DNA of 64,000 nucleotides from Hydra vulgaris (lineage: Eukaryota; Cnidaria; Hydrozoa; Anthoathecata; Hydridae). The DNA is taken from contig NC_088934.1 in assembly GCF_038396675.1 (NCBI RefSeq), forward strand, positions 3,407,501 through 3,471,500, read 5' to 3'. The position numbers and the translations under genes were made by a program. Numbering within the stretch: the stretch's first letter is position 1; every line of letters starts with the position of its first letter. The notes beneath the pieces were generated by a model. It was not told the origin of the DNA, searched no databases, and saw only the letters and a program-made list of their open reading frames with translations. Shown here in pieces: positions 7,816 to 55,393 of the stretch.

Positions 7816-10172
7816 ATGGAAGTTGAGCGAACAGGTATATATTTACAATATCATAAAACACTAGTTGTATCTTTGTTGATAAAAAAATAATTTGATTGTA
7901 AAGATGACGATAGGTTAGCACTAAAATAAGAATTTTGAAAAAATTTTAATAGAGTAGAACTTTTGAGATTGTTCGGGATTGTTATAAACATAAACTGTTT
8001 TTTTATTGTTACTTTATTTATCTCTCAGAAAAAGTTACTCTTGTGTGCTCGTACTTGCTCTTTCTATATTTTTTTAATTTTTGTAGGTTCGATGGCGTGT
8101 CGTGTGAGAAAACAAGACATTTTTGAAGTATGGCGGAAAGAAAGAAATTTTAATAAAGTGATGAAATTTGTTGAAGAAACAATTAACTTTAATAGTAGTG
8201 ACACTAAAGAAGGGCCTAGAGGAAGGTTTTTAAGTGCTTAGAGGAAGGTGAAAAGACAAAAAACACAGAGCATCCAAAAAACATTTCGGAGAATGCAGTC
8301 ACTCAGCAAAAACTAGGAGAGTGAAAGATCTCGTTGAAGATAGGACATCTGATGACCTTTCTCTAGCTACACGAATTAAATTTAGGCATGAGGATAAAAG
8401 GAAAGTTATTCATATGGTTACATCACCTACCAGTTCACCAAGAAAAGTTACCAAAGTAAAAAAATGTATTTTCATTGAAAGTAAGGCTCCCATAAAAATG
8501 ACAGCAGAGCGTGCGTTAGTTCTCTTTGCTGATAATAAATTTACAAAGAATCAATACATCGATATTCAACATACCTCTAAATCGCACAACGCTGACATTT
8601 ACCCACCATACAATCGTTTGTTGGAGGCGAAGATGCTATGTTATCCCGGTGACATCAAAATAACTGAAATATCTGCCGAAGTTTTTTTTCAATCATTAGT
8701 GAACCACACAGTTCAAAGACTTTTGAGTGCACAGAGAGATATTTTAAAAGCAAGGCAGCAGGATTTTGATCCCAAAAATTTAAATATTTTATTCAAGTGG
8801 GGTTGTGATAGTGCATCGGGTCATAGCCGATATATGCAAGGTTTTGAAACGGATGATAGTGACGATTCGAGCATTTATTTTGTATCTATGGTTTCCCTTA
8901 TATTACTGCTTCGTCAGTAAGTGGGTCATGTTATTTGATTCTGTAAAATAATCATGTACCTTCATCAAAAAAATATTGTCGTCCCATCAAAATCCGTCAG
9001 GGTTAGGGTTAACCCTGGCAGGAGATCCAGGTTCGAAACGAGCTCTGGAAAGTTTTCGCGTCACGGTAAGGAAGGAGGCGTGAACTTCCTGGTTAAATGC
9101 ACTTCCGTGGAGCTCTGTGACAAGACCGTTAGGACTTCTTGGGGCACCTAAAAAAAAAAAAAAAATGTTTCACAAAGAAACACCTAATTTTGTAACATAA
9201 CAAGTTGATAATGTTAAAAAAGAAATACAGGATCTGAGCCCCAGTGAGATTATTGTGGAAGGAGTACAATTTAAAATACAATCAACGTTTTCACTAACGA
9301 TGATTGATGGTAAAACTTGCAGCACTCTTTCCAATACAGCTGCTCAAAATTGTCATATTTGTGGCGCATCCCCAAAAATAATTAACAATCTAGAAGCAGT
9401 GCGAGCAAGACCAATAAACAAAAATGCTCTTCAATTTGGACTATCAAGCTTACATGCTTGGATTAAATGCATGGAGTGTATCCTCAATATATCATACCGT
9501 TTAGATATTAAAAAATGGAGAATTGAGAAAACACAAAAAAATAAAACAGAAAAAAGAAAATAGGCAGTACAAGAAAATTTGAGAAGAGAATTGATGAACC
9601 TATCAGAATTGAATGTTGTAGTTGATGAACCAATGAGAATTGAACATTTTAGTTGATTTACCAAAGGCTGTGGCACAATCAATACAGGGAATGTGGCTTG
9701 TACTTTTTTTTACAACCCAGAGCTAGCCTCACAAGCTACAGGGGTAAATAAATCTCTTATAGAAAGATTAGGGACAATCCTCCGTACAATTGGCTCGGGG
9801 TTTGCAATAAATATACCAACTTTTGAAAATTTTACCATGCAAACTGCTGATTTGTACATTCAAGAATACTCTTGGTTCTACATGCCGCAAAGTGTACACG
9901 AAATTTCGATGCATGGAAGCCTCATTATAAAAGAAGCCATCCTACAAATTGGTACACTGTCAGAAGAGGCTCAGGAGCATAGAAGTAAAGACATTCGAAA
10001 TTACAGAGAGTTCCATGCAAGAAAATTATCCAGAAAAGAAAATGTGGAAGACATGTTAAATCTACTTCTTATAAGCTCTGACCCTTTAATCTCTTCTTTA
10101 AAGAGAAAAAAGCCAAAATCTAGTTTTCCACAATTAGTTTTAACCTTGCTAAGAGAAGCTGAAGACTTGTAG
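7816..10172 (+). pseudogene. RAG1/Transib-like transposase, copy 1
   Basis: A short first exon (ATG 7816, donor after 7834, phase 1) joins in frame to an exon starting at 8087 (GSMACRVRKQDIFEVW). Frame breaks near 8230 and a SINE at about 8999-9166 disrupt it. Downstream blocks match the RAG1 catalytic core in order. FKWGCDSASGHSRY near 8800 corresponds to the region around the first catalytic Asp of RAG1. SSKKYCRPIKIR just before the SINE and FHKETPNF just after it follow. Next are CHICGASPKIINN, a C2 knuckle like RAG1 CTLCDATR; FGLSSLHAWIKCMECIL near 9440; GTINTGNVAC near 9680; FYMPQSVHEISMHG near 9885; and LSEEAQEHRSKD near 9965, equivalent to RAG1 SEGNESGNK with the catalytic Glu. It ends LLLISSDPLISSL. 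An Asp at the second catalytic position (RAG1 LHCDIG) is not evident. Terminal repeats were not found. Confidence 0.72.
8999..9166 (+). mobile_element. tRNA-derived SINE, copy 1, inserted in RAG1-like gene
   Basis: The body matches four other copies in the window: a B-box-like GGTTCGAAACGAG, then AAGGAGGCGTGAACTTCC, AAATGCACTTCCG, CTCTGTGACAAGACCG and CTTCTTGGGGC, ending in a 15-base A tail. The tRNA-like head is degenerate here. It interrupts the RAG1-like frame between the R of PIKIR and the F of FHKET. Confidence 0.8.
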
Positions 10173-18154: not shown

Positions 18155-19450
18155 AGTAAATTACAAAAGAAGATCTAAACATTCTGCTGGAAGAGCAAGT
18201 TCCTTCTTTGATTCAGAACTTCGCCTTATAGAAGTAATAAAGGTGTCTGGTGAGCAGAGCAATCTTCACATTACATCTTCATTTATAATTTTTCTAGAAA
18301 ATTTTCTTGTAAAATGTTCTCAAAAAATTTTAACATCTTTGTTTCTCCTTTCCTGGGCTTCTTCAGATAAGAGGCCAATTGGAACTGGCTTGTCTCTTAC
18401 AACCTGGTGTGAATGGACAATCATCTTATGCACTCCAGCAGGCATATGATACCATTTAAAATATGTTACATATGTCTTAAATGTATCTTTGCAATATATT
18501 TCTAGTTTATCAGGATCAATTGGGTGCTTACAGGACAATACACAAAGAATAATGAAAAATCTATTAACAAGATCCTTATCAATTTCATGGCTTCTAAATT
18601 CCCTTCTCACTGTGTTTCCATCATTGGCTGATTTTCTTTAACATATTGCATTTGAACAGGACGACAATATTGGGTTGAGGATATTTTGGGTTTTGTCCAA
18701 AGAATAACATTAGCCTCCTGTATTTTAAGTTGCACAGGTACTGTACACAAAAAAAAAACAAAGATTCTTCAACTGGAACTGGCAATCTGCCCTCTTCATC
18801 TTCAGTTTTCTGTTTGTAAACAGACTGTTCAGATGAACCATCGAATCCAACTTTGCTTATAAGAAGAAGAGTATTGCAAGACTCAGGTAGTTTCAGTTTA
18901 TCCATAACTTTCCAAATTCTGTTTGTAATATGATCCATTATTCCTTGAAGATTCACAGAAGCACTATAGTTCGATGTGACAATTCCGGAATCTGGAATGC
19001 ATTTACTTTTAGCTTTCACAATAAAATTGTAGGCAGGGTATAACATACAACCTTTATCTAAGGCCCCTTAACCGATAGTTTGATAGTCAGTCCTACTCAT
19101 TCTATAGTCTAACATTAAAGCTAAAGCATCTTCTGCTAAGTAGCTTTTAGAGCATGGTATATTACAGGATCCATCAGTTTTACTTTCCATCAAATTTTGA
19201 TAACTTTGGCATCTTTAAATCGACCTTCTTTATTGAGGTTAAGAATAAGGGCGTGAAACAGACTTTCAGTGGTAACACCTAACTTTTTAGTAATCTCTGA
19301 AGATCTACTTTTCTAAGACCTTGTTGAGAGATCTACAAATGATTTAAAGGTGCACCTCGTTGCACATTTTTTATCATAACTTGTTGTTGAGGTTCGTTTA
19401 CAGTAAATTCCATATTTAACCATTTCTCTTAACGATTTATAAACCTTCCT
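18155..19450 (-). pseudogene. RAG1/Transib-like transposase, copy 2
   Basis: Minus-strand pieces in the same order as copies 1 and 3. AEDALALMLDYRMS near 19110 matches the AERALVLFAD block of copy 1. LYPAYNFIVKAKSKCIPDSG follows near 19015. LLLISKVGFDGSSEQSVYKQ near 18820 holds the Asp equivalent to RAG1 D600. Then come YHMPAGVHKMIVHSHQVV near 18430 and PIGLLSEEAQERRNKD near 18340, equivalent to the RAG1 Glu motif. HFTRKFSRK, NEDV and LLCSPDTFITSIR follow in shifted frames to about 18155. An N-terminal Cys-rich stretch (YCKRTSTTSYDKKCATRC) lies near 19390. The middle, with the Cys knuckle and second catalytic region, is deleted around 18610-18780. The sequence differs strongly from copies 1 and 3, so it belongs to another lineage of the family. 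Confidence 0.7.
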
Positions 19451-33890: not shown

Positions 33891-34336
33891 ATATTTAATT
33901 TCCCAAAACTTTAATGAAAAAGTACTTTTTCTTGAATACCATTAAAAAACAGGTAAAGTATTATTTCAAATAATACCACCAGTGCACTATGCGTCACTTT
34001 GCGGAAGTAGAATTTTGAACATATTTTTTAGTGATTTTTCATATTTAAACTTCTTAAGTTTTTTTTTTTTGTATTCAGTTTTTAATTCTTTATAAAAAAA
34101 AAATCAGTTTTAGTTTTTTAAACTTTTGATATTTTAAGGGTTTTTTCAAGGTTTTAAAAAACTGGCATTTTTGTTAAAATCCTTTTAAGGTATATGATAA
34201 GTATTAAATTTTTATATTATTTTTATGCGAAATTAAAATAATCATATATTTAATTGAATGTAAAACTAGAATAAGAAAAAAAAGGTTTTTGCATAGCGTT
34301 TTTTTGCTGATTATTTGATTTCTTAATCATTGATTT

Positions 34337-34446
34337 GAGCATGTGGTCACAGAGGTCGCCTCGTTTTTTTTGAATAAAATATAGCTACTGCGAATTGACT
34401 TTACTGCCATGCAAAAATATTCAGGCGATCTCTGTGACCTTATGCT
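34337..34446. mobile_element. 110-bp MITE, GAGGTCGCC family
   Basis: GAGCATGTGGTCACAGAGGT at 34337 pairs with CTCTGTGACCTTATGCT ending at 34446 over about 24 bases with a few mismatches. A relative with the same AGAGGT(C/A)GCC core is at 51115-51209. Confidence 0.65.
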
Positions 34447-34667
34447 TTAAAATCATTTTTACTTCTGTGAGTTTTATTTAAAAACCGACTAAATTCTGTG
34501 AAATCAAGGAAAATTACGTAGTTTCAATAACATACAGTTTTACCTTGCGATGGTTTTTATAAATTATCAAAATGGCTACATTCACTCTTTGTCAACTTTT
34601 AACACATGCATTTCCCTCAAAACATATATTCTTAAGAAAAAATTTGAGGAAATATGAGGAGGGATAG

Positions 34668-34806
34668 CTTATTTTAAAAGAGGGTGAAAAGCTGATTCAG
34701 CAGGGTGACCAGCTCATCAAGCAAGGTGAACAAAAAAGGAAGGAGGGCCAATTAATACTGAAAGTTCTTGGACTAAAATTAAACAGGTACGTACAATGTA
34801 TGTATT

Positions 34807-34878
<72 letters not shown>

Positions 34879-34917
34879 GGCATGTGTGTGTATTTATAAA
34901 TATAAATAAATATATAT

Positions 34918-34966
<49 letters not shown>

Positions 34967-34990
34967 ACATACAAATACATATATATTGTG

Positions 34991-35022
<32 letters not shown>

Positions 35023-35059
35023 TATAAATACATATAAATACATATATATACATATATAT

Positions 35060-35111
<52 letters not shown>

Positions 35112-36803
35112 TATATGTACACACATTTTATACACGTTTTAGAAGAAATACTGTAACAATGGGAACACCTGAACCAGGTATTTATACTGCACCTTGTGCG
35201 CCAAAACTTAGAAAATCTTTTTCAGAGCTCACGAGTAGGATGAAACTTAAAGAATTGATAATCTTATGGGAAAAGAACTGTACGAACTTCAACATGCTGT
35301 AAAAACATGCTGTAAAGTAGACCTGAGTGCAGCATGCACCCAGGTCTTCTTTATATGGTCCAAATTTATCCTTGCATACTTTTTGCAATTTGAGACTAAC
35401 AGACAGAACATGGGTTGATTTTAAGAAAATTGTTACACAAAATCATCATCTTGTTCCTCCAGGTTTAACCAAGTTAAAAGAATACAAAAAAGTTGACATA
35501 TCCAGAGCATGTGGACTATTCAGAAAATGAAGTAAAATGTAGTCTCTTCAATATGATCAAACATTCAGTTTCTAAAATGTTTGAGTATCTTTTGATGGAT
35601 GAAGATAATCCTATTAAAGTTTTAGCACAGAAGGAACGTGATAACATATGTGTTATTTGCAAAGTGGGAGGTGATGGTCAGAGTGACCAATCTGAGTTTC
35701 AGAAGGCAGCAACTATGAAGAGAGGTGTGGATGATTCCACTGTGTATAGCATAGTGTATAGCATTGATACTGTTGGAAGTGGAAAAAAGATAATATGGAA
35801 AAATTGTAATCCAAATAGTCCAGATGCAACCCGCCATCTTATGTTTTGTTTTGCCAAAGAGACTGCTAGTTTTATTCAAGAGAAGTTTGAACATTTACAA
35901 AATGAAATATTGTCTTTAGAGAATATTAAGTTTACACTTCATGAAAATACTTTTGTTATAAATTCAAGTTTGTCAATTATTTATACCACAATGAATAATG
36001 GTAAAACACTTAATGCTGTGGTATCAAAAATGCTTAAAAAAAATTTAGCATCTCAGTTTTGTCATGTATGTCAAGCAAGTTCAAGGAGTTTAATTTGGAA
36101 ACTTTTTGGAATAAAGATGAACTTGTAGGCAAGAATTTATTAAATTTGGAGTTTGCAGTCTTCATTTGTGGATATGCGGCATGGAGTGGGTCTTCAATAC
36201 TGCTTGCAAACTTCCTGCAGTGAAACAAGGAAGAAAAATTCCAAGAAAAAACAGCCAAAAATTTATTGAAAACAAAAAAAATTCCAGCCCTTATTCAAAA
36301 CACAATTAAAAATAAGGGTATCTTTTGTCAGGAAGGGAAGTGGTACATCCAATACAGGCAATGTTGCACGAAAATTCTTTAATAATCCATCTGTGACTGG
36401 AAGAGTTTTAAATTTGAATACCAATATGATCAAACTATTAAGGGACCTGCTCATTGATATGAACAGTACAACCACAAGACCAGATGTAAAAAATTATAAG
36501 CAGAAATCTGAACATCTGTTTGATCTCATTTCTAACGATCAGTTTTTAAAAGCCATTCCAATGTCACAGTCTGTGCATAGAATGATAGTTAATGGTGTTT
36601 CTTTTATTAAATATTTTAAGTATCAAATAGGTTCTTTGTCTGAGAGTTCCAATGAAGCCAGGAACAAAGCCAACAAAACTGCACGAGTGGGTCATGCACG
36701 TTTAACTTCGTTCGCCGAAAATACTAGGGATACAACTAATTATTTATTTATGACATCTGACATGTATCTATACTGCAAGAAGAGCAAAATGCAAGTGGTA
36801 TAA
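34668..36803 (+). pseudogene. RAG1/Transib-like transposase, copy 3
   Basis: Exon 34668-34786 encodes [18 protein letters not shown] (coiled coil) and splits an Arg codon at GTACGT. The next exon starts at 35143 ([17 protein letters not shown]). Frame breaks occur near 35275 and 35500. Core blocks in RAG1 order: ICKVGGDGQSDQSEFQ near 35655 (first catalytic Asp); VYSIVYSIDTVGSGKKIIW and CNPNSPDATRHLMFCFAKE near 35745-35865, matching the RAG1 stretch with PNSELCCKPLCLMLADE; FCHVCQASSRS near 36060 (Cys knuckle); KFGVCSLHLWICGMEWVF near 36150; GSGTSNTGNVARKFFNNP near 36340, like RAG1 NGNFARKLM; SVHRMIVNGVSFIKYF near 36570; and GSLSESSNEARNKANKTARV near 36630, like RAG1 ASEGNESGNKLFRRF. It ends near YLFMTSDMYLY. 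It is inserted in the P-element-like transposon. Confidence 0.75.
34812..35106. repeat. (TG)n and (TA)n microsatellites within the RAG1-like intron
   Basis: TG array 34812-34877, then TA arrays near 34922-34961 and 35062-35106, all between the two splice sites of RAG1-like copy 3. Confidence 0.95.
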
Positions 36804-37473
36804 AATTTATACTGCAAGAAGATTCAGCTGATAACTGTTCTTAAGATAAATATTCGAGAAAGCTATGTTTATCTTTAAATTTAGATATTTAATGTTATTG
36901 TTTAATTCTATTAATAATACATTTTAGGTGCTGGTGGTAGTTTATCTGATATTTCTGAGGTCTTTTCACATAATCAACACAGTATGTTTTTTTTAAGCTT
37001 GCAAAAAAAAAAAAAAAAAAAAAAATTCAATTATATCTATTTATTACAGTGAATACAGTTTTTTTCTTGGATTTATTATTAGAATTATTAGAATTAGAAT
37101 TAGAACTAATTATTAGAATTAGAATTTGATAATAGATAATTTCTATAATTACTGTTTATATCTTAAACTATACTTTTTATTACAATAATGAAACTTTTTT
37201 AAATTTTAATGTTTGTTGTTAAATAATTTTAGGAAGTCAAAGAGTAATGGTTTGTATTAAGAAAAGAAATCAAGGAAGTATCATTAAATCATGCAGCTGT
37301 AATTAATAAGCAAGTTTATGATTTCTGAAGAAATGTTATTTACACTAATTTGCTTTGATGCTTATAAATTTTTTTATCCGATATCCATAAAGTGTTGATA
37401 TTTTAACAATTTACCTTTCCATTAAAAGTCTCACTGTTCTCTTTTAAACCTAACCTAATGTGTCGCCTAGTTT
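36804..37473. other. AT-rich spacer with one possible small exon
   Basis: 36930-36980 is bounded by TTTTAG and GTATGT and is open (AGGSLSDISEVFSHNQ). It may be an exon of the interrupted P-like gene. An A tract lies at about 37002-37024. Nothing else seen. Confidence 0.3.
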
Positions 37474-38592: not shown

Positions 38593-39255
38593 GAAACTCT
38601 GAGTCTACAAAACAGTTATTATGTCGGATTTTACAAGAAAAGTTAAAAAGCATTACCCACCAGAACTACAAAGCTTTGCTTTAACATTAAATTTTTATTC
38701 TGCTAAAGCATATAGTTATGTTAGGAAAACATTTGATAATGCAATTCCTCATCCATGAACTATACAAAAATGGTATGAAAGTGTTGACTGTTCCCCTGGG
38801 TTTTGTAAAGAAGCTTTAGTTACTCTTCATAGCAAAGTAAAATTGGTCAACGTGTTGTGTGTTCATTGATGTTATATGAAATAGCCTTTGGAAAAAAAAT
38901 CGAATGGACAGGCCATAAATTTTCTCATTATTTTGATTTTGGTGTTGATATTAATAATGATAGTTTACCCGAAGTAAAAGAAGCTTTAGTTTTTATGGTA
39001 AACTGTGTAAATAGACGTTGGAATCTTCCTGTTGCATATTTTTTCATTGATGGTTTAGGTGGTTGTTAAAAGGCTATTATTATTAATTGTTGTCTACAAT
39101 TTTATTTATGAAAGTGGTGCAGAAATTATAAAATTATTATTGCTAAATATTTAAAGACACGGTTGCACTACAAAGCTGACTCGATCAATGATTTACGACA
39201 TAATAAACGTATACAAAGTGTATTACCAAAGCGAATTTTATTTTTAAATCAATAA
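38593..39255 (+). pseudogene. P-element-like transposase, middle and C-terminal pieces
   Basis: After an acceptor at 38592 the frame opens with STKQLLCRILQEKLK, shifts by one base, and continues HYPPELQSFALTLNFYSAKA, IPHP, then a stop, TIQKWYESVDCSPGF and KEALVTLHSKVK. After another break come SHYFDFGVDINND, EALVFMVNCVNRRWNLPVAY and FFIDGLGGC. The segment TRLHYKADSINDLRHN to a stop at 39253 resembles the C-terminal block of THAP9/P-type transposases. The second P-like copy (53400-54200) shows the same order (FAITLHFYSPKAY, NWTSSVDFEPGF, EALVFIMVGVRGHWKTPIGY), which supports the assignment. The stretch holding most catalytic residues is missing between about 39067 and 39140. Confidence 0.75.
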
Positions 39256-52545: not shown

Positions 52546-52704
52546 GATTTGATCAATGATATATTAAAAATAACTAGATGTCTAACTTCCGCGTATTTTT
52601 TGAAGCAAAAATCGGCCATTATGGGGGGCAAATTTAAAAAATAGTAAATCACGGTTGTTTGGATCAAATAATATTCGATATTTAATATTCAAAATTTATA
52701 AATC

Positions 52705-55393
52705 ATGGTTAATTCTTGTGCTGCAGCTGGTTGCACAAATAGAGCAATGAAAAACGACAACAGAGCATTTCATAAATTTCCAATTAATAATAGGGAACTT
52801 TATAAAAGGTGGATTGTTGCTATAAAACGTGAAACATTTATTCCTACTGAGCACAGCCGCATATGTAGTGATCACTTTTTACCTTCAGATTACATACCTG
52901 ATTTTAATAACAAGCCTAAATTAAAACCTTTTTCTGTGCCATCTGTTATTATTGATTCAAAACCAAAAGTCAAAAGAAAATTTAGTTCTATATCGCCACA
53001 AAAAAATAAAAAGAGACTCATTAAAAAAATTTCAGAAACAGGCAGTCACCATCACATCGATTTCCATTCGGATATAAGTGATAACAATAATGTTGCTGCT
53101 AATAGTAACGAAATTTATATTAATAGTGTTATTTTAAAAACAACAGAGAGTATTGATTGCCAGGTGGATATAGATAGTAGCTTTAATATTATCGAAAGTA
53201 GTAACAAAATTATTAATGATGATACTATTATTTCTAAAAGTACATTATCGACAAATGCAAGTTCAACTAAAGCAAAATTAAAGGCAAAAAATAAAATTCT
53301 TAAACAAAAGTTGCGACGAAAAGAAAAAAAATAAATTCATTAAAGGTTATGCTAAAAAATCTAAGAAAAAAAAAAATGTTTCTGACGATGCTGCTAATAT
53401 TCTTTGTGAAAACTTTAGTGGATTGACTTTTGATATTATAAAAAATCAGTTTAAAAACAATACCTCACTTCCAAAAGGGCATAGGTATACTGATGAAATT
53501 AAAAAATTTGCAATAACTCTGCATTTTTACTCACCTAAAGCATACAATTTTCTACATCCTGTACTCCATTAACCTGCTTCAAGCTCTCTAGCCAACTGGA
53601 CTTCCTCTGTAGATTTTGAACCTGGTTTTTTTTGAAGATGTTTTAAGTTATATTAGTATAAAAGCAGATACTGACATTAATTATAAAGATTGTGCATTAA
53701 TTATAGATGCAATGGCAATCAAAACATCAATTCTATACGATAAAAAGACAGGTCGATTTATTGGATTTACATATTATGGAAAAGATGTTGTTGCAATTGA
53801 ACCAGATACACCAGCTACAGAAGCATTGGTATTTATCATGGTAGGAGTACGAGGTCATTGGAAAACACCTATTGGCTATATACTGTGTAGTAAAATAACA
53901 ACTGAAAACCTTTCATGTCTTATTAAAAAAGCATTAACAGTTTCCTCTGATAAAAAAATTAATGTACGTAGCATTACATTTAATGGTGTAAATGTTAACT
54001 TTAATTCTGTTGCATCACTAGGATGTACATACGGGAAAAGACAAGAAAAAATTAATGGAAGATTTACTTTTGAAGGCTATAATCACTACTTGTATGTAAT
54101 CCCTGACCCAAGTCATATGCTAAAATTAGCTAGAAATGCATTATGTGATTTAGAGGTACTTAAGGATTGTGATGGGAAATACATCAAATGGAGTTATATA
54201 AAAGCTTTATATGAAATACAGGAAGAAGAAGGATAAAAATTTGCAAATAAAATCTCAATAAAACATATTTATTTCCAGCGTCACAAAATGAATGTTAAAT
54301 TTGCTGCACAAACACTTAGTAGTTCAGTTGCAGATGCAATTGAATTTCTGATGTTTTCCAAACATCCAAATTTCAAGCATGCTGAAGGAACTATAAATTT
54401 TATAAGGGTCATCGACAAATTATTTGATATGCTGAACTCTAAAAATCTTTTTTCAAAATCGTATAAGAAAGCTCTTTTTTTGAATGATTATCCTTATAGG
54501 AATGCAACTTTTGATCAAATAATAAACTACTTATCAAAGTTGACAGATGTTAATGGTACTCAATTATTAAAACATAGGAGAAAAACCTTTGTATTAGGGT
54601 TAATTGTGGCTGCAAAAAGTCTTCAACACTTAGCCTATGAGCTTTTGACTTTAAATGTTCATCCTTTTAAATTTTGCTTTACATACAAATTTTCACAAGA
54701 TCATCTTGAGTTACTGTTCTCTTGTATTCGTGGAATGAATGGATTTAATAATAATCCAGATGCCCTCCAACTTAAGTCATCTTTAAAAAGAATTCTTTTG
54801 CGCAATTCTATTGTAGGCTCAAAGCATGCAAATTGTTTAACATTTGAGGATATTGCAAATGGCTCTATTTTTGCATTAAAGTGGAGTAAAAAATATGCAA
54901 TTTATTCAAATCCTGAAACAGATTTTTTAAACTTTGATATTGATATTGTTACAATTCAAAATAATCTTGATAATACCTCTATCTATAAGGAAGCAATACT
55001 AGGATATATATCTGGATTTATTGTAAGAAGATTATTATCAAAGATAACATGTTCTGTGTGTGCAAACTCACTTATTTCCCAAAACAATTTTGTGGAACAT
55101 TCTTATGGAACATCAGTTTTTTCAATGATTAACATAAAAAATAGGGGTGGGCTTATTGCTCCAAGAAATGATGTTATACAAACTATAATAGTATGCGAGA
55201 GTGTTTTCAAAATTTATGTTTGCGGTGACAATTTAAAAAAACCAAAAATGAATGAAAACTTAAACTGAAAATGATTTATGAAGTTAATAAAATTATTAGT
55301 GAAAAACATTTTTTTAAAGACCTAAATGAACACGATGCTGAGCATGAAGCTGTCACTGAAGACATGCATTCCACACAACTGATAAAATGTTAG
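52705..55393 (+). pseudogene. P-element/THAP9-like transposase, frameshifted
   Basis: ATG 52705. The THAP domain spans residues 1-80: CAAAGCTNR, FHKFP, RWIVAIKR, CSDHFLPSDY and the AVPTIF-like FSVPSVI. A charged linker and coiled coil follow (KAKLKAKNKILKQKLRRKEK), then a stop. Shifted frames continue KKFAITLHFYSPKAYNF, a stop, SVDFEPGF, then 53616-54236 with CALIIDAMAIKTSILYD (catalytic Asp), FNGVNVNFNS (Asn where P-type enzymes often have Asp) and VIPDPSHMLKLARNAL (DP.H..K..RN box). 54288-55268 has RRKTFVLGLIVAAKSL and FSQDHLELLFSCIRGMNGF, with the C-terminal acidic residue and NNP. CSVC near 55045 follows. At least three breaks. P-type transposases cut at 8-bp sites and use GTP as cofactor. 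Confidence 0.9.

Follow-up and report, generated by a model that had tools for sequence, protein, structure and literature searches.

The window, i.e., the whole stretch of 64,000 nucleotides of Hydra vulgaris DNA analysed here, contains the remains of a transposon, copy 3, whose features are collected in Table 1. A preliminary description had placed at 34668..36803 a "RAG1-core-like transposase relic" with most catalytic landmarks recognisable. Each of the sequence blocks that it named is present in the sequence, at the place and in the order given, and all lie inside the element, which is itself larger (33985-37317). Most landmarks are kept, but the second catalytic Asp and the second ZnH2 His are both Asn. 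The nonamer-like block of the 5' terminal inverted repeat (TIR) has one change relative to the CGGAAATAG of the family, and no further family end was found elsewhere within the window. In the 5' part of copy 3, an inverted repeat with 17-bp arms and a single mismatch was also recognised by eye (GGTCACAGAGGTCGCCT and AGGCGATCTCTGTGACC, 34345-34361 and 34423-34439, 61 bp apart).

Table 1. Features of copy 3 and its surroundings (positions in the window).
Feature	Position	Strand	Remarks
CAGTG, left half of presumed 5-bp target-site duplication	33980..33984	.	Adjoins 5' TIR; right half gone with 3' end
Transib element copy 3	33985..37317	+	5' end intact, 3' end gone; limits are where paralogue homology starts and stops
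5' end CACTATGCGTCAC, CAGTG just before	starts 33985	+	Kept
5' TIR CACTATGCGTCACTTTGCGGAAGTAG	33985..34010	+	Heptamer-like CACTATG, 10-bp spacer, nonamer-like block
Internal deletion junction	34645..34647	.	Homology gap; L033, L031 and L040 hold about 260-385 bp there
Heptad-repeat remnant, probably exon (33 residues)	34647..34786	+	AG/GTACGT after, at 34787; 5/20 copies match
Coiled-coil block (11 residues)	34698-34730		Named in the preliminary description
Probable intron	34787..35142	+	TG and TA microsatellites, TTTTAG at end; splicing predicted from sequence
Main transposase exon	35143..36797	+	Six frame-shifting indels among seven; GTG/GTATAA at end
Terminal basic segment (12 residues)	35213..35245	+	Like the pre-core segment of other Hydra Transibs, judged by eye
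Block ICKVGGDGQSDQS	35655-35693		Named in the preliminary description
First catalytic Asp (D600 equivalent), GAT	35673..35675	+
Block NPNSPDATRHLMFCFAKE	35808-35861		Named in the preliminary description
Second catalytic position (D708 equivalent), AAT = Asn	35997..35999	+	Asp in 16/20 copies
Block FCHVCQASSRS	36057-36089		Named in the preliminary description
CHVC zinc knuckle	36060..36071	+
Block GSGTSNTGNVARKFF	36336-36380		Named in the preliminary description
Block SVHRMIVNG	36570-36596		Named in the preliminary description
ZnH2 histidines	36576..36593	+	First His kept, second = Asn
Block LSESSNEARNKANK	36636-36677		Named in the preliminary description
Catalytic Glu (E962 equivalent), GAA	36654..36656	+

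Two other Transib relics, copy 1 (8252-10172, plus strand) and copy 2 (about 18167-19136, minus strand), are found in the window; they resemble copy 3 but are of other families, having 28% and 20% identity to it, respectively, over the aligned parts. A search for the Transib-end pattern around these two copies found none. The window also contains remains of P-element-type transposases, at 38603-39069 (matching Pfam Tnp_P_element and TNP-like RNase H) and, as judged by eye, at 52702-55268, with a THAP-like start.

Copies of the same family were searched for in the Hydra genome (911,502,276 bases in 15 contigs) using the last piece of copy 3 as query. At least 152 matches were obtained, dozens of them with at least 70% protein identity (150 of 3145 candidates scored). 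These matches, together with those to Hztransib given below, show that the blocks did not arise by chance. Twenty loci of about 9 kb each were fetched, at most 18 of them independent, because L025, L026, and L027 are near-identical and L030 and L035 have a small-indel pattern in common. The homology of these copies to the window begins at 33985 where their 5' end is kept and stops at 37317 in the window, and L025 runs about 570 bases further, to the right TIR. The near-identical loci L025-L027 (C9:25608784, 25626348, and 25656111) lie within 50 kb and show 99.86-100% identity across a stretch of more than 3 kb that reaches past the end of the element; they are a recent segmental duplication with one copy inverted.

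The region upstream of the main exon includes a heptad-repeat segment of five 7-residue units, with microsatellites between the two. The preliminary description had proposed it as an added coiled-coil first exon, of which the upstream segment stands as a plausible exon, matched in 5 of the 20 fetched copies, while its position as the first exon does not; the segment looks internal, because an acceptor-like site precedes it (TATAG in 4 of these 5 copies). It is followed by AG/GTACGT in the window, L022, and L040, while L031, L033, and L023 have variants of this sequence at the same place. When the window and 16 further loci (L041-L056) were searched for the segment, it was found in copy 3 only, which hints that this exon may be special to the copy-3 family; these loci comprise 14 of other families and two copy-3-family fragments, with short flanks. 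Downstream, the main exon is followed by the exact pattern GAG/GTATAA in 9 of the 20 loci and GTG/GTATAA in one, and 14 of the 20 have a TTTTAG whose following sequence is similar between them. The exon borders, introns, and splicing of the family are thus putative, as read from these signals.

Both ends of the element are recognisable in the family. The left ends read CACTATGCGTCGCTTAGCGGAAATAG (eight, including that of the window) and the right ends, reversed, CACTATGCGTCGCGCTGATAGAAAAAACGGAAATAG (12 listed), with small variation between copies. Both ends have CACTATGCGTCGC or close variants. The TIRs start with a CAC heptamer, and 13-bp TIRs are common to the copies. The Transib heptamer consensus is CACWATG. 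The ends are bipartite and asymmetric, the spacer between the heptamer and the CGGAAATAG block measuring 10 bp at the left end and 20 bp at the right end. When the inner stretches of both ends were dinucleotide-shuffled 5000 times, they shared a 9-mer or longer in 9 cases, a figure that flatters the block CGGAAATAG, as it was noticed first and tested after. Matching 5-bp target duplications were found in 4 of the 5 copies, among the 20 loci, with both ends called: CGGCG in L022, L032, and L036, and GAGCC in L029. The fifth, L033, has two called ends without a common duplication (CATCG vs. TTCTA), its 3' call having five mismatches. Where only the right end of a copy was called, its flank is mostly similar to these duplications (CGGCG, CGTCG, CGCCG, CGACG, CCCCG, CGGTG, and CACCG).

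The protein remains of copy 3 match Hztransib, the Transib transposase of Helicoverpa zea (species as given in PMC8355894), of which the structures PDB 6pqn and others are available. The translated pieces 35478-36128 and 36270-36803 matched the Hztransib chain 6pqn_A with E = 2.1e-5 and E = 1e-17, respectively; the latter piece also found, by phmmer, an amphioxus RAG1L chain (E = 0.019) and, more weakly, two unrelated chains (E = 0.64 and 0.95). The family profile A3 matched 6pqn_A with 120.7 bits (E 6.3e-34) over positions 11-432 (422 of 442), amphioxus RAG1L with 23.5 bits (E 1.9e-4), and vertebrate RAG1 not at all at E up to 1. In hhalign, L025 and L032 gave a probability of 99.9 with the Transib group (Hztransib, L053, and L042), 8.0 with RAG1L and zebrafish RAG1, and 12.2 with the Hydra locus L051 (described below). 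The DDE triad (D, D, and E) and both ZnH2 His are invariant in the six aligned sequences, from four families, of profile A2. With this profile, 27 and 177 pattern stretches were retrieved from collections of genome contigs and viral contigs, respectively, among which no relative was confirmed. An AlphaFold prediction of the read-through copy 3 with 13 sequences gave a poor model (mean pLDDT 38.4, pTM 0.28).

Two profile comparisons had been suggested in the preliminary description. That with Transib gave a clear match, so that a lack of any significant RAG1 or Transib profile hit does not apply. That with Pfam RAG1 (PF12940) gave no match at E up to 1, either for the window pieces or for the paralogues L025 and L032. 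This miss says little on RAG1 vs. Transib, because L042, a Transib of another family in the same genome, passes the cut-off of this unspecific model with 45.6 bits; L053 also matches, below the cut-off. Across the Hydra genome, Pfam RAG1 had 24 matches, mostly short and around the catalytic Glu (68 of 130 candidates scored), and it matched in 0 of 14 control genomes. The search for RAG2 found no match in the Hydra genome and none in any control genome either. Copy 3 is almost certainly a fossil, i.e., a broken and degenerate copy, of a DNA transposon of the Transib superfamily in Hydra vulgaris. As judged from these comparisons, its family is assigned to Transib and not to RAG1-type elements, whereby the preliminary reading stands in describing a degenerate, cnidarian transposase related to RAG1 and Transib, with landmarks like those of the RAG1 core, and changes in the family to which it belongs.

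A different placement would make copy 3 a RAG1-like element of the RAGL or ProtoRAG type, whose RAG1L once stood beside RAG2L and which would be nearer to RAG1 than to Transib. It has in its favour that the motifs of the RAG1 core recur here in an unchanged order, together with the weak RAG1L matches given above (phmmer and profile) and the solitary cnidarian RAG1L loci that passages of PMC7204232 describe as closer to RAG1L of deuterostomes than to Transib of arthropods. The core tree (11 sequences, unrooted) is also relevant here, as it draws RAG1L, RAG1, and L051, which join each other with supports of 100 and 100, beside the pair formed by the copy-3 family and window copy 1, although with a support of only 40. 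In this tree copy 1 is the partner of the family (UFBoot 87), the branch to the family has a length of 1.63, and the remaining Transib nodes have supports of 62 and 77. Because of the weak node, it is mainly the profile scores, and less the tree, that separate copy 3 from RAG1. These scores, the hhalign probabilities (8 vs. 99.9), and the Pfam RAG1 miss speak against a RAG1-like element, as does the CTT1 motif (C..C...GH....C), which was absent by a loose pattern from the three forward frames of the 20 loci, a search that a spliced motif could escape. Additionally, the identity of the family is 16-21% to RAG1L and zebrafish RAG1 and 25-28% to Hztransib. Membership in RAG1L was rejected on the profile, hhalign, the Pfam RAG1 miss, and copy 1 as the neighbour in the tree, and is very improbable. 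An origin in some other DDE superfamily whose core is similar (Chapaev, CACTA/EnSpm, or PIF) could be considered, as Chapaev appears as a distant Transib relative in passages of PMC4411706; however, the CACTATG ends, the GC-rich 5-bp target duplications, and the match to the Hztransib profile fit Transib, and such an origin can be given hardly any weight.

The same small weight is given to copy 3 being a domesticated host gene or regulator in which the missing second Asp would have been tolerated or favoured by selection. This would account for Asn at that position while the first Asp and the Glu are kept; however, the same residue is lost in other copies (Asp in 16 of the 20 sequences, Asn in copy 3 and one more, and Gly in two). 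The first Asp is kept in 16/20 and the Glu in 17/20 copies, and the second ZnH2 His is present in 18, with Asn in copy 3 alone and one gap. The damage to the main exon was counted over 35240-36790 against the column majority of an alignment of the window with 19 loci (20 sequences; L038, too short, was left out) and comprises four single-base deletions plus insertions of 3, 4, and 1 bases. The frame is shifted by six of these seven indels, and the reading frame along the exon is 2, 0, 2, 1, and 0 in turn. Besides the internal deletion, about 570 bp of the 3' end, including the right TIR, are gone by comparison with L025. Copy 3 diverges from the family majority by 5.3%, with differences of 32/28/22 by codon position, and the differences in all 20 sequences are likewise even (437/400/419, near-duplicates included), which looks like neutral decay after the spread or insertion of the family. 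Domestication was rejected on the indel and codon-position evidence. The column majority of the 20 sequences is open for 515 codons, and the longest open frame among the listed matches with at least 70% identity has 409 codons (L032; 150 candidates scored). Copy 3, as a Transib fossil, is inert, because no working protein is possible and one end is lost.

The life of the family is proposed here from its observed membership, ends, and target duplications, the catalytic residues of the paralogues, and the decay of copy 3. In Hztransib and RAG, the heptamer is nicked, a hairpin forms on the flank, the ends are paired, and insertion is staggered by 5 bp. The live Hydra family would have encoded one DDE transposase, which would have bound the bipartite terminal repeats at the heptamer CACTATG and, presumably, at the CGGAAATAG block. 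By homology with Hztransib and RAG, the element would have been cut out by nicking at the heptamer with a hairpin on the flank; the ends would then have been paired, in a synapsis that may favour one short-spacer and one long-spacer end. Insertion into GC-rich 5-bp targets with a 5-bp stagger would have left the CGGCG-like duplications, a step that is supported by the 5-bp duplications seen.

As in Hztransib, the Hydra family has the DDE residues, the zinc motifs, and the same domain order, while the heptad-repeat segment and the probable microsatellite-filled introns are found in the Hydra family and not in Hztransib. According to passages of PMC8289069, symmetric TIRs prevail among Transib families and are present in Hztransib too, in contrast with the asymmetric TIRs of the Hydra family. 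Asymmetric 12/23-like ends are described, in passages of PMC8355894, for Drosophila Transib5, Anopheles Transib2, and N1-N3. These insect elements and the Transib Subgroup I of PMC9435367 (seen in part) are like the Hydra family in having a heptamer and a second block at unequal distances, which are 12/23 (±1) in the insect Transibs and 10/20, with CGGAAATAG as the second block, in Hydra. CTT1 is a feature set for Subgroup I in the same passages of PMC9435367, whereas in the Hydra family it was not found; the family does have the asymmetric bipartite TIRs that are a trait of Subgroup I, which leave the subgroup undecided because Subgroup II has asymmetric TIRs too. Closer in spacing is AanRAGL of Aureococcus, whose ends, as given in a part of PMC9435367, combine a 13-bp with a 10-bp element across spacers of 4 and 13 bp, i.e., 10/19 bp from the heptamer against 10/20 in Hydra; however, AanRAGL encodes RAG1L and RAG2L, and the Hydra family shows one transposase gene. 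The asymmetric bipartite plan is therefore already in print, and its 10/20 version is not among the asymmetric ends described in the passages of PMC9435367 and PMC8355894, a comparison narrower than a survey of the literature.

Transibs are likewise already known in Hydra, which is named in the legends of Transib trees in PMC4411706 and PMC9435367, as far as the passages go. The copy-3 family is a divergent family within this known superfamily, and a separate subgroup is possible because its branch is very long and its identity to Hztransib low, at the values given above. CMC-Transib, a possible counterpart of the copy-3 family, is one of 14 TE families enriched in Hydra vulgaris AEP over strain 105 in PMC12220107, the passages of which contain no sequence or subfamily. 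According to the same passages, some subfamilies of the AEP-enriched elements underwent local expansion in certain regions of the chromosomes. Among the listed matches, 17 lie within the first 12.1 Mb of contig C2 (60706-12089841) and are copy-3-family fragments with 47-72% protein identity; L055 and L056, on this contig, have 1.7 kb in common around the fragment with 90% identity, which suggests that a larger repeat was amplified locally.

RAG1 is known to derive from Transib, and debate continues on how the 12/23 rule arose. On its own, copy 3 is an ordinary fossil; the family, with many copies and measured 10/20 ends, is a RAG relative with a single gene in which unequal end spacing can be put to the test. 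The 10/20 ends recall the 12/23 RSSs of RAG1, and it is conceivable, if rather unlikely, that they are true functional counterparts of the 12- and 23-RSSs, with short/long pairing enforced without RAG2 in a divergent cnidarian Transib lineage. If so, the spacer rule would be older than RAG2.

A further locus of the genome, L051:480-2687 on the minus strand (C7:15155679-15157886), has an uninterrupted ORF of 736 residues, which scores 93.9 bits with Transib, 49.7 with RAG1L, 35 with zebrafish RAG1, and 33.3 with Pfam RAG1 (cut-off 25). By these scores, L051 is a better candidate than copy 3 for a RAG1-core-like protein of the Hydra genome.
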